From Coriobacteriia bacterium (GTDB lineage: Bacteria; Actinomycetota; Coriobacteriia; Coriobacteriales; Atopobiaceae), in NCBI GenBank assembly GCA_030530145.1, contig JAUMVN010000015.1:1-54344 (forward strand): a stretch of 54,344 bases of DNA, read 5' to 3'. This document shows positions 44,908 through 51,771 of this stretch, one piece after another. The position numbers and the translations under genes are program-made. The notes under the pieces were generated by a model. That model worked only from the letters and a program-made list of their open reading frames with translations. It searched no databases and was not told where the DNA came from. Numbering within the stretch: position 1 is the first letter of the stretch; each line of letters begins with the position of its first letter.

Positions 44908-46167
44908 TTACAGCTCGGTGCGCTTCTTCGCGACCACGGCAGCGCTGAGGACGACGGCGCCCACAGCGACGATTGCGGCGGTGTTCACGCTCTCGTCACC
45001 GGTCTTGGGCACGTTGGTCTTGCGCTCGGTCGTCTCGGCCGCCGGCTTCGTGGGGGTCTTGTCGTCGGGCGTGGGCGTGGGCGTGACCTTGGCCTCGTGC
45101 GTGTTCGTGATGGTGCCGCCGTTGTCGACGGTCGCCTTGTCCGTCGTGTAGTCGGCGACACTCGCCTGCGTGACCTGGTAAGCGATCTCGTAGCGCTCGT
45201 CGTCGTCGGTGTAGGCGTACTTCTGGACGCCCTTGTACGTGACGGTGTAGGTGTCGTTGCCGTTGTCGACGACGGTCGGCTCCGCGTCGGAAGCCTCGCC
45301 GTCGGCGGTGAGGGAGAGGAGCTTGGCGAAGTCCTCGGCGCTCGGGCGGACGCCGTCCTTGTTGGAGGAGTCCTTCCAGGCGACGGTCACGGTCACATCG
45401 GTGGTGGCGGGCACGATGGTGAGGGTGCCGGGAACGACCTTGATGTAGTTGAAGCCGCAGATGTCGTCGCCGACGAGCACGATGTTGGTGTAGTCGCCAA
45501 TTTTGGCCTCGCCGAGACCCGTGCGGGTGCCGGCGGAGTTGCTCGTGTAAGCTGCGGGAATCTGCTCAGGGTCGGCCGTATAGGTGATGGCGTACTTGCC
45601 GGGCTTCTCGCCGGCCTCGCGGCTCAGCGTGAAGGCAGAAAGCGAGATTTCGGTCGTGGGGTCGCCGAGCAGGACCTTCAGGGTTGCAGTAAGAGTGGGG
45701 TCCTCCTCGCCCTCAACCTTGGTTACATTCTGCTCAGCGAACTCGTACTGGGTGCAGATGTCGTGACGAACATAGGAGTGATAACCAATTTCGTCCCACT
45801 TGGCGTAATCGCCGATATAGGTGATGCGCTCCCAGACGAAGCCCGAGCTCGTCATGCCTTCGTCGGTGTCCTTCCAAGCGGAAGCATCAATCTTGTCAGT
45901 GTTCCTGCGGTCGGTCACGAAAGCGTAGCTGCGCGTGAAGTCCTCGCCCTCGGTAAGGACGGTGCCGTCAGCGTCCTGAACGGTGCACTGGAAGTGGTGC
46001 GACTTGCCGTTGTACCACTCGCGCTTCGAGCCCGTTGCGTTGGGCCGTTGGTCTGCGCTCGCCAGCGCGGTCGTCGGGAGGGCGAGAGCAACGATCGCCG
46101 CGAACACTACCGCAAAAACAGCGAAAGAAGCTCTACCCCCCCCCAAGCTAAATTTAGACTTCTTCAT
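44908..46167 (-). CDS. LPXTG-type cell-wall anchored surface protein
   Basis: This is a 419-residue protein with a signal peptide (1-37, cleavage near ALA-SAD). It has beta-rich repeats ending in GTLTIVP (MBG-like, about 240-250), a Cna-B-like domain (VTVAWKDSSNKDGVRPS, about 258-345), a Thr/Pro stalk, and the sorting signal VPKTGD with hydrophobic helix and KKRTEL tail. A sortase would link it to peptidoglycan. No sortase gene is in the window. Codons 8-11 contain a run of nine Gs (46136-46144 on the plus strand as C9), a likely slippage site. Confidence 0.88.
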   Translation of the reverse strand: MKKSKFSLGGGRASFAVFAVVFAAIVALALPTTALASADQRPNATGSKREWYNGKSHHFQCTVQDADGTVLTEGEDFTRSYAFVTDRRNTDKIDASAWKDTDEGMTSSGFVWERITYIGDYAKWDEIGYHSYVRHDICTQYEFAEQNVTKVEGEEDPTLTATLKVLLGDPTTEISLSAFTLSREAGEKPGKYAITYTADPEQIPAAYTSNSAGTRTGLGEAKIGDYTNIVLVGDDICGFNYIKVVPGTLTIVPATTDVTVTVAWKDSSNKDGVRPSAEDFAKLLSLTADGEASDAEPTVVDNGNDTYTVTYKGVQKYAYTDDDERYEIAYQVTQASVADYTTDKATVDNGGTITNTHEAKVTPTPTPDDKTPTKPAAETTERKTNVPKTGDESVNTAAIVAVGAVVLSAAVVAKKRTEL

Positions 46168-46308: not shown

Positions 46309-47025
46309 TTAAGCGGTTGTCGACCAGTCGATACTGTGCCCCCCATGCTCCACCAGCAGCTTGTTTGCTTGCGAGAAAGGCCGCGACCCTATGAAGGCGG
46401 GCAGCCCGCCGCCTGCGCGGTTGGCCGAGAGCGGGGAGGGATGGGTCGAGGCAAGGGAAAACTTCTCCCCGGCCACGTCCGGGCCGAGCGCTGCCCGGGC
46501 GTCGTCGACCAGCTTGACCGCGTGCCTGCCCCAGGTGAGAAACACCACGGGCTGCGGCAGCATGAGGCATCGGCGCACGATGTGGTCGGTCAGCACCTGC
46601 CACCCGAGCTTGGCGTGGGAGTTCGCCGCTCCTTGGCGCACGGTGAGCGTGGTGTTGAGCAGCAGCACGCCCTGACGCGCCCAGCCGGAAAGGTCGCCCG
46701 TCGCGGGGACGGCGCAGCCCAGGTCGGCGGCCATCTCTTTATAGATGTTCCTCAGGCTCGGCGGCAGCTTGCAGTCGCGATGGACCGAGAACGAGAGCCC
46801 CATGGCCTGGCCCTCCTCGTGGTAGGGGTCCTGCCCCAGGATCACCGCGCGCACGTCGGCGGGCGCGGTCCACGCGAGGGCGTTCAGGATGTCGTCCTGC
46901 GGCGGATAGATGACCTGGCCGTCCTCGCGCATCTGCGCTACCTCGGCCAGAAGCCGCGCGGTCGTGGCCTGGACCTCGGCCGGTGCGTCGGCGAGCCAGG
47001 CGTCGATGTTCCCCTGCTTGTCCAT
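46309..47025 (-). CDS. ung: Uracil-DNA glycosylase
   Basis: This is a 238-residue family-1 UDG. The water-activating motif is VILGQDPYHEEGQAMGLSFS (Asp about 65). GVLLLNTTLTV (about 119) and the minor-groove loop ASTHPSPLSANR (about 190, His) follow. It removes uracil from DNA. The start lies 2 bp after the HD-domain gene stop, indicating an operon. Confidence 0.95.
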   Translation of the reverse strand: MDKQGNIDAWLADAPAEVQATTARLLAEVAQMREDGQVIYPPQDDILNALAWTAPADVRAVILGQDPYHEEGQAMGLSFSVHRDCKLPPSLRNIYKEMAADLGCAVPATGDLSGWARQGVLLLNTTLTVRQGAANSHAKLGWQVLTDHIVRRCLMLPQPVVFLTWGRHAVKLVDDARAALGPDVAGEKFSLASTHPSPLSANRAGGGLPAFIGSRPFSQANKLLVEHGGHSIDWSTTA

Positions 47026-49104: not shown

Positions 49105-50100
49105 CTAGCGTGGCAGCAGCGGCTTCTCCAGCTCGCGAGAGAGCTCGGGCAGGAGGGCTGCGAAGGTCGCGTCGCGCGTCTTCTTCTTGAGCTGGCACTC
49201 CCAGATAACGTGGACGGTCCAGCCGTCGGCGCGCAGGGCCTCGAGGTTCTGCCGGTCGCGCTCGACGTTGCGCGCGAACTTGGCGTCCCAGTACTCGACG
49301 TTCTTCTTCGGCGTGGAGGGGTTGCAGTTCGGGCAGCGGTGCCAGAAGCATCCGTTGATGAACACCGCGACCTTGCGCCCCGGCCACGCGACGTCGGGAC
49401 GGCCCGGGACCTTCCACTGCAGGCGGTAGCCGGTAAGGCCCGCCTCGCGCAGGCGCTCGCGGACGAGCAGCTCGGGCTTGGTGTCCTTGCCCTTGTTGCC
49501 CTGCATCGAGCGGTGCGTGCCGAAGTCGGTCGCCGCAGGCACGCCGCGCCTGGCAAGAAGGGCGCCCGGCTGCCCATCCGCCTCCGCGCGCTCGGCCTCT
49601 CGCAGCGCCTCCGACCAGCGCTCGGTTAGCCGCTCCAGGCTCCATGCCGCGTTCGCGGGGCTCGTGGACGGCAAGACGATCGCCGGCATGCCGCAGCGGT
49701 ACTCGAGGTATTTGCGGTAAAGCCGCCCCGCGGTGGCGCCGTTGCAGACGACGGCGCGGACGGGCGCCGCCGCGAGGATGCGCTCGACGCGGTTCTCCAC
49801 GACGTTCTTTATGCTGGCGTCGCTTGAGCCTTTGATGTCGCACTCGGCGATGACGTCCCACAGCGCGATGCCGTGGGCCAGCAGGAACGCGCGCTTCTCG
49901 TCAACGGTCTCGGGCACGGGACGCCCCTCGTATGCTGCGATGACGTGCCAGAAGCGGTTCTGGGGGTTGCCGTAGTAGAACTCGTTCGCGCGGCTGAGCA
50001 CGGAAGGAAACGACCCCAGCACGAGCACGCGGGAGCGCGCGTCGTACACGGGGTCGAAGCCGTGCTCTATGTGCTGGTACTTCGTTGCCATGCAGGCCAT
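49105..50100 (-). CDS. DNA glycosylase (UDG superfamily) fused to Vsr endonuclease
   Basis: This is a 331-residue two-domain repair enzyme. Residues 20-180 match the hypoxanthine/uracil DNA glycosylase group: RVLVLGSFPSVLSR, then YYGNPQNRFWHVI, ALWDVIAECDIKGSSD and VLPSTSPAN. Residues 200-315 are a very-short-patch repair endonuclease: DTKPELLVRERLREAG, GRPDVAWP (catalytic Asp), FINGCFWHRCPNC (catalytic His) and WDAKFARNVERD. Vsr is normally a stand-alone ~150-residue protein beside a DNA-cytosine methylase; no methylase is present here. The start ATG could be 50100 or 50091. Confidence 0.88.
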   Translation of the reverse strand: MACMATKYQHIEHGFDPVYDARSRVLVLGSFPSVLSRANEFYYGNPQNRFWHVIAAYEGRPVPETVDEKRAFLLAHGIALWDVIAECDIKGSSDASIKNVVENRVERILAAAPVRAVVCNGATAGRLYRKYLEYRCGMPAIVLPSTSPANAAWSLERLTERWSEALREAERAEADGQPGALLARRGVPAATDFGTHRSMQGNKGKDTKPELLVRERLREAGLTGYRLQWKVPGRPDVAWPGRKVAVFINGCFWHRCPNCNPSTPKKNVEYWDAKFARNVERDRQNLEALRADGWTVHVIWECQLKKKTRDATFAALLPELSRELEKPLLPR

Positions 50101-50118: not shown

Positions 50119-50168
50119 TCGGGGCGCCCCAAAACGCCGCCGCCGGCGTCCGGGCGCCCCAAAACGTT
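50119..50168. repeat. Short array with GGGCGCCCCAAAACG units
   Basis: Two copies of GGGCGCCCCAAAACG occur 30 bp apart, between the ends of the Vsr fusion promoter region and the HerA-like gene. On the minus strand the core (CGTTTTGGGGCGC) matches the TTTNGGGGC core of the 41-bp arrays. Confidence 0.6.
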
Positions 50169-51771
50169 AGTAGCGGCGGGTGCCGAAGAGGCCGCGGAGG
50201 ATCTGGTTGGCCGCCTGCTTGCCCACGGAGGTGAGGACGCTCGTGGCCGCGCGCGTCATGGCGTCCACCTGCTTCTGCTGCTCCTTGGCGCGGCGCTCCG
50301 CTTCCTTCTCGGCGGCTCGCTGCTGGCGCTCGGCCTCCTTCTGGGCCGCGCGCTCGGCGGCCGCCTCGGCCTTGGCAGCCTCCTTCTGGGCCTTGGCCTC
50401 GGCCGCGGCCTGCTGCTTGGCGAACTCGGCCTTCTGGGCCTCGAGCTCGGCGCGCTCCTGCGCGAGCTTATCTGCCTCGGCGTCCGCCGCGGCCTGACCC
50501 TGGATGATCTCGTAGGCGCTCTCGCGGTCCACGGCGGTGCCGTACTTGGCCTGCAGGTCGGCCTGGGCCCCGATGACGGCGGCCTTGGCCTCGTCGCTCG
50601 CGGCTGCCATGAGGCACTGCGGCGGCAGGACCTTGGCGTTCTCGACCACGGAGGGCTTGCCGTCCTCGTCGAGGAAGCTCACGAGCGCCTCGCCCGTGCC
50701 GAGCTCCATGATGGCGTCCTCGCTCTTGAAGGCCGGGTTCGCGCGGAACGCCTGCGCCGCGGCCTTGACGGCCTTCTGCTCGGCGGGGGTATAGGCGCGC
50801 AGGCCGTGCTGGACGCGGTTGGAGAGCTGCGCCAGGACCTCGTCGGGGATGTCGGAGGGGCTCTGCGTGATGAAGTAGACGCCCACGCCCTTGGAGCGGA
50901 TTAGCTTGACGACTTGGATGATCTTGTCGAGCAGCTCGGAGGGCATGCCCTTGAACAGCAGGTGCGCCTCGTCGAAGAAGAAGACGAACTTGGGCTTGTC
51001 CATGTCGCCGACCTCAGGGAGCTTCTCGAAGAGGTCCGAGAGCATCCACAGCAGGAACATCGAGTAAATCTGCGGCTGCTGGATGAGCTGGGCGGCGTTC
51101 AGGATGTTCACGTAGCCCTCGCCGCTCGCATCGCAGGTGAACCAGTCGTTGAGGTCGAGCGCCGGCTCGCCGAAGAACACGTCGCCGCCCTGGTCCTCGA
51201 CGGCAAGAAGCGCGCGCTGGATGGCACCCACGGACTGCGCGCTCACGTTGCCGTACGTCGTGGTGTACTCCTTGGCGTGCTCGCTCACGTAGCCGAGCAT
51301 GGAGCGCAGGTCCTTGAGGTCGATGAGCAGCATTTGCTTGTCGTCAGCGATGCGGAACACGATGTTGAGGACGCCCTCCTGCACCTCGGTGAGGCCGAGC
51401 AGACGCGCGAGCAGGGTCGGGCCCATGTCCGAGATGGTGATGCGTACGGGGATGCCGCCCTCGCCGCTCATGTCCCAGAAGCGGGTGGGGCAGCCACGGT
51501 ACGTAAAGCTCTCGAGGCCGAACTTGGCGATGCGCTTCTGCATGTTCTCGGAGTCCGCGCCCGCCTGGCACATGCCGGTGACGTCGCCCTTCACATCGGC
51601 CATGAAGACGGGCACGCCCGCCTGCGAGAAGCCCTCGGCCAAAAGCTTCAGCGTGACCGTCTTTCCGGTGCCGGACGCGCCGGCGATGAGCCCGTGGCGG
51701 TTGGCCTGGTTGAGCAGCAGATAGCAGGGGTTCTCTCCCTGGGCAACCCAGATCTTATCCTCGCAGAGCAT
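50167..51771 (-). CDS. HerA/YjgR-like ATPase (DUF853)
   Basis: This is a 534-residue ATPase of the DUF853 (YjgR) helicase-like group. It shows Walker A GASGTGKTVTL (about 31-41), Walker B FVFFFDEAHLLF (about 263) and an arginine-containing QSPSDIPDEVLAQLSNR sensor region. Residues about 420-510 are a very long Ala/Glu/Gln-rich coiled coil. It resembles DNA-translocating HerA, but the role is unproven. A strong AAGGAGGTCC precedes the ATG. Confidence 0.88.
   Translation of the reverse strand: MLCEDKIWVAQGENPCYLLLNQANRHGLIAGASGTGKTVTLKLLAEGFSQAGVPVFMADVKGDVTGMCQAGADSENMQKRIAKFGLESFTYRGCPTRFWDMSGEGGIPVRITISDMGPTLLARLLGLTEVQEGVLNIVFRIADDKQMLLIDLKDLRSMLGYVSEHAKEYTTTYGNVSAQSVGAIQRALLAVEDQGGDVFFGEPALDLNDWFTCDASGEGYVNILNAAQLIQQPQIYSMFLLWMLSDLFEKLPEVGDMDKPKFVFFFDEAHLLFKGMPSELLDKIIQVVKLIRSKGVGVYFITQSPSDIPDEVLAQLSNRVQHGLRAYTPAEQKAVKAAAQAFRANPAFKSEDAIMELGTGEALVSFLDEDGKPSVVENAKVLPPQCLMAAASDEAKAAVIGAQADLQAKYGTAVDRESAYEIIQGQAAADAEADKLAQERAELEAQKAEFAKQQAAAEAKAQKEAAKAEAAAERAAQKEAERQQRAAEKEAERRAKEQQKQVDAMTRAATSVLTSVGKQAANQILRGLFGTRRY

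Follow-up and report, generated by a model that had tools for sequence, protein, structure and literature searches.

A hypoxanthine-DNA glycosylase fused to a Vsr endonuclease in Coriobacteriia: domains, occurrence, origin and proposed role

The fusion gene and its domains

The window analysed here, the whole stretch of 54,344 nucleotides, derives from a gut-type actinobacterium. A single open reading frame of 331 aa was found by ORF listing at positions 49105-50100 of the reverse strand, with no interruption, and joins a DNA-deoxyinosine (hypoxanthine) glycosylase (HDG) to a Vsr endonuclease, as a sequence-only reading of this DNA had described. Relatives open with MA(S/T/K)YQHI, so the fusion more likely begins at the second methionine (ATG at 50091). 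The second glycosylase gene named in the sequence-only reading, ung, was confirmed 2.1 kb away (46309-47025, reverse strand) as a separate neighbour coding for a family 1 uracil-DNA glycosylase (PRK05254/TIGR00628). A surface protein with a C-terminal VPKTGDE-type sortase motif is encoded at 44908-46167.

Domain residue numbers were counted from codon 2 of the frame. In profile searches, residues 13-161 (49615-50061, reverse strand) matched positions 1-150 of 150 of TIGR04274 with 129.9 bits against a cut-off of 80, assigning the N-terminal domain to family 6 of the UDG superfamily. Residues 194-302 (49192-49518, reverse strand) matched positions 10-119 of 119 of the Vsr mismatch endonuclease model TIGR00632 with 105.6 bits against a cut-off of 97.85. 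The E. coli MUG-type model gave just 15.6 bits (cut-off 144). A PDB sequence search with the fusion returned Methanosarcina 2l3f (E=4e-18) and E. coli Vsr (1cw0, E=2e-17; matches 1cw0/1vsr/1odg). An AlphaFold model of the fusion (mean pLDDT 76, pTM 0.51) was superposed on 1cw0 with a Z of 13.3 and on 2l3f with a Z of 11.4.

The domains are separated by a flexible linker (49519-49602, reverse strand), mostly predicted from pLDDT to be disordered and highly variable among the fusions. In the linker alignment its length ranges from ∼20 to ∼190 residues, and little is conserved beyond the Vsr N-terminal lead. pLDDT falls below 50 at residues 179-206 of the AlphaFold model; these residues are predicted to be disordered, and the relative placement of the two domains is therefore not fixed by the model. 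Judged by these matches, both domains are complete and over their curated cut-offs, with a floppy linker between them, and the earlier claim of a complete Vsr domain held in this domain search of the translated frame.

Stand-alone HDGs have 33 positions with a conservation of 97% or more; the window fusion keeps every one, and the sole change at these positions among the fusions is V83A, found in two of them. The window motif, read from the sequence, is LPSTSPAN, near-invariant in relatives, and the motif-2 His of family 1 is absent. This His is missing in UDG families 2 and 6, and family 6 is the one UDG family reported to be without UDG activity (PMC5387724). Of the 'hypoxanthine/uracil type' assigned to the glycosylase beforehand, the hypoxanthine part stood with the TIGR04274 match and the uracil part is unlikely.

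Loss of catalytic residues had been raised as an objection to the fusion; the near-invariant and most catalytic residues were found to be kept. The Vsr equivalents of E. coli M14, T22, E25, D51, C66, W68, H69, C73, K89, N93, D97, W115, E116 and C117 are present in all fusions, and the F67 equivalent is Tyr in two. The E. coli Vsr reference row agrees with the 1cw0 alignment where both overlap. From the active-site set E25, D51, H64, H69 and D97, the window keeps all but H64, which is replaced by Asn, as in 49 of 59 stand-alone Vsr relatives. To our knowledge, no assay exists of a Vsr enzyme with Asn at the H64 position. Asp occupies this position in the active V.NgoAXIII and V.Nme18VIP (PMC12907096). 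The Vsr zinc ligand His71 is apparently replaced by Cys in the window (HRCPNC). Pairwise dN/dS was ∼0.06-0.4 for both domains wherever computable, with many pairs near saturation, and indicates that both fusion domains are under purifying selection.

Occurrence, copy number and origin of the fusion

The fusion survey covered the window's own family (f1, 140 genomes, including Kribbibacterium), the class (398 genomes) and a second family, the Eggerthellaceae (f2, 138 genomes), and the loci were read. Searching Coriobacteriia for the same fusion, as had been suggested with the sequence-only reading, yielded eight further genomes beside the window's, from four genera of another family. HDG-Vsr only is encoded in G397 and G427 (genus g46) and in G396 (g72). 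In G309 and G367 (g69) and in G269 and G360 (g55) the fusions are longer, with a C-terminal GIY-YIG domain after Vsr (PF01541, E 1.6e-14 to 4.7e-16; L145:4470-6155, L146:3615-5405, L147:3738-5297 and L148:4231-5793). The same HDG-Vsr-GIY-YIG protein is apparently split by two contig ends in G443 (g55), where L150 stops within the linker and L151 opens with the back half, Vsr and GIY-YIG (L151:91-837; GIY-YIG E 7e-18). The third domain is thus found in five of the eight further fusion genomes, in two genera of Eggerthellaceae (g55 and g69). It is absent from the window fusion, and the sole GIY-YIG match of the window's own genome lies in UvrC.

Since the fusion is present in eight other genomes, the window frame is not a product of chance or artefact; an assembly frameshift, also raised beforehand as an objection, was dismissed by recurrence of the fusion in nine genomes. 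The fusion was not found in a wider phylum sample of 346 genomes, in the plasmids, phages or viral contigs searched, or in family f3 at E <= 1e-80, a threshold that would miss long-linker fusions. Near-neighbour vsr and hdg genes in other genera were rejected as not fused; in genus g34, for example, separate vsr and hdg genes lie ∼1 kb apart with a metallophosphatase-like gene between them (L152:2353-4223). No description of an HDG-Vsr or HDG-Vsr-GIY-YIG architecture was found in the literature searched, a limited set with most subscription journals outside it. HDG-Vsr combines known enzymes in a new architecture and does not constitute a new class of enzyme.

Each of the nine fusion genomes has no HDG or Vsr match other than the fusion, so that, judging from the assemblies, the fused protein provides all of the cell's HDG and Vsr. 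Completeness of the near-complete fusion assemblies is 97.5% for the window's own genome (G000), 99% for G269, 99% for G360 and 98% for G309; the other values are 85% (G396), 84% (G443), 80% (G397) and 63% (G427). In most other f1 and f2 genomes HDG and Vsr are encoded separately, each by a single gene. Vsr is single-copy in 115 of the 140 f1 genomes, and one f1 genome (G022) shares an identical Vsr with K. absianum.

In the HDG tree, the glycosylase domains of all nine fusions are nested within a clade (95/93) of stand-alone HDGs from f1 and f3, apart from the stand-alone f2 HDGs, and forcing all f2 HDGs into one group was rejected (AU p=0.0001). In the Vsr tree, all nine fall in an Eggerthellaceae-type clade (98/98) and stand apart from the main f1 Vsr clade, which includes the same-genus copy. 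Moving the window Vsr to the main f1 Vsrs costs 11.9 log-likelihood units and is not formally rejected (AU p=0.18). For both domains, monophyly of the fusions was compatible with the data (p 0.51 and 0.53). The trees indicate that the fusion is a chimera: its HDG is of the type found in the window's own family, its Vsr of the Eggerthellaceae type. On the simplest reading, an HDG of f1/f3 type and a Vsr of f2 type would have been joined once, and the fusion would then have spread across the family border and later gained GIY-YIG; several fusion events may instead have occurred.

A recent tandem merger at the ancestral locus was rejected, as in G057, a genome of the same genus, HDG and Vsr are ∼694 kb apart and their loci, in the stretches read, share no neighbours with the window. 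A HerA_C-type ATPase gene (50167-51771) adjoins the fusion and was possibly acquired; in an empty-site search by means of this gene, 12 relatives, the same-genus genome among them, gave no match at E <= 1e-60.

Methylase and mismatch-repair context

Vsr is taught as the partner of Dcm. PF00145 (C5-methyltransferase) had no match anywhere in the window's own genome, which is 97.5% complete, so that the earlier statement that no methylase is near now extends to the genome as a whole. A resident cognate C5-methyltransferase, the mark of Dcm-Vsr very-short-patch repair, was thus not encountered there, and the window Vsr is therefore not serving a resident Dcm. PF00145 was also unmatched in the near-complete fusion genome G269, and C5-methyltransferases are present in five other fusion genomes. 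In the co-occurrence survey suggested earlier, Vsr is associated with C5-methyltransferases across the family (odds ratio 6.5, Fisher p=3e-4), so a link to 5mC may exist in general. No C5-methyltransferase was matched in 19 of 64 Vsr-positive family genomes of at least 95% completeness.

A search for MutS found none in the window's own genome, and all Coriobacteriia analysed have been reported to be without NucS and without MutS-MutL (PMC5290159). The Vsr enzyme V.NgoAXIII acts on T:G irrespective of context (PMC6116569).

Within f1 (stretches L192-L231), median GC was 52% in sampled Vsr-negative and 65% in Vsr-positive genomes (p=0.0003, kinship not corrected), with no such contrast within genus g9. 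The contrast would fit, without showing, GC-biased T:G repair.

Proposed function, alternatives and comparison with known systems

The fusion is proposed, with moderate confidence, to be a tethered, Dcm-independent base-lesion and mismatch repair protein whose two independent modules patrol I:T and T:G. From family knowledge, the N-terminal domain would excise hypoxanthine, the deaminated adenine of I:T pairs, and leave the abasic site to the ordinary BER enzymes. At T:G mismatches the C-terminal domain would nick on the 5' side of the T, and resynthesis by a polymerase would then restore C:G. I:T and G:T are isosteric wobble pairs, so the two modules, carried independently on one flexible tether, could sample the same kind of distortion in a single patrolling molecule and correct the right strand: a hypoxanthine purine would be removed, and opposite a guanine purine the T strand would be nicked. 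As the genome has neither a C5-methyltransferase nor MutS, T:G would stem from errors of replication, from recombination or from methylated DNA entering the cell and not from a resident Dcm. Two genera of Eggerthellaceae have gained a GIY-YIG nuclease as a third module. A broader version, in which Vsr is a Dcm-independent general T:G mismatch-repair nuclease in Coriobacteriia and the HDG tether distinguishes I:T from G:T, avoiding repair in the mutagenic direction, is considered unlikely.

The known substrates differ, being the hypoxanthine base for HDG and the T of T:G for Vsr. This difference, together with a variable linker holding little conserved sequence, suggests tethered independent modules and not a sequential one-lesion machine, and the earlier claim of a one-protein route of base excision plus strand nick, read as action on the same lesion, gained no specific support. 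In such sequential action Vsr would serve as an inbuilt AP endonuclease, nicking beside an abasic site made by the glycosylase. That base removal is physically coupled to a strand nicker, and that a further nuclease is joined in two genera, would suit it, but the mismatch-recognition residues of Vsr (M14, F67, W68, K89 and N93 equivalents) show the conservation expected of a T:G reader, the linker is disordered as well as variable, and the HDG and Vsr genes are separate in most relatives, which makes sequential action rather improbable. A fusion of convenience, in which two housekeeping repair genes merged neutrally or at the level of expression and are not coupled in mechanism, would agree with the variable linker and with the predominance of stand-alone forms in both families. 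Such a merger is nevertheless doubtful, given that the fusion is kept across genera and was apparently transferred between families, that both stand-alone copies are gone in nine of nine genomes and that a third nuclease was added.

The family-wide association of Vsr with C5-methyltransferases (odds ratio 6.5) would be expected if the fusion were left over from Dcm-linked very-short-patch repair after a recent loss of the methylase. This origin is very unlikely, however, when 19 of 64 near-complete Vsr-positive genomes are without any C5-methyltransferase and the Vsr domain of the fusion lineage is under purifying selection. Least probable is a defence or anti-mobile-DNA nuclease directed against deaminated, modified or heteroduplex incoming DNA: although PADLOC includes a Vsr model and Vsr is found on some phages and plasmids, the fusion was in no phage or plasmid record, its annotated neighbours are not defence genes by name, and single-copy Vsr in 115 of 140 family genomes is housekeeping-like.

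The window's own genome, without a C5-methyltransferase or MutS, has retained a Vsr and has it fused to a deamination glycosylase, and the fusion of these single-copy repair genes recurs in a class reported to be without known mismatch repair. Two questions arise: which enzyme corrects T:G in such bacteria, and why it is coupled to the removal of hypoxanthine.

Compared with family 6 HDG (TIGR04274; Methanosarcina HDG, 2l3f), the N-terminal domain is alike in its full-length model match and fold and shares the conserved motifs GSFPS, NPQNRFW and LPSTSPAN. Family 6 HDG is stand-alone in nearly all relatives examined, whereas that of the window carries a C-terminal Vsr nuclease. GIY-YIG nucleases (PF01541) supply the third domain of the g55 and g69 fusions and have no counterpart in the window fusion. 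The C-terminal domain resembles known Vsr enzymes (E. coli V.EcoKDcm, 1cw0; Neisseria V.NgoAXIII) in its full model match, in most catalytic residues and in its wedge residues, and differs from them in being fused to a glycosylase, in having Asn for H64 and in residing in a genome without a C5-methyltransferase.
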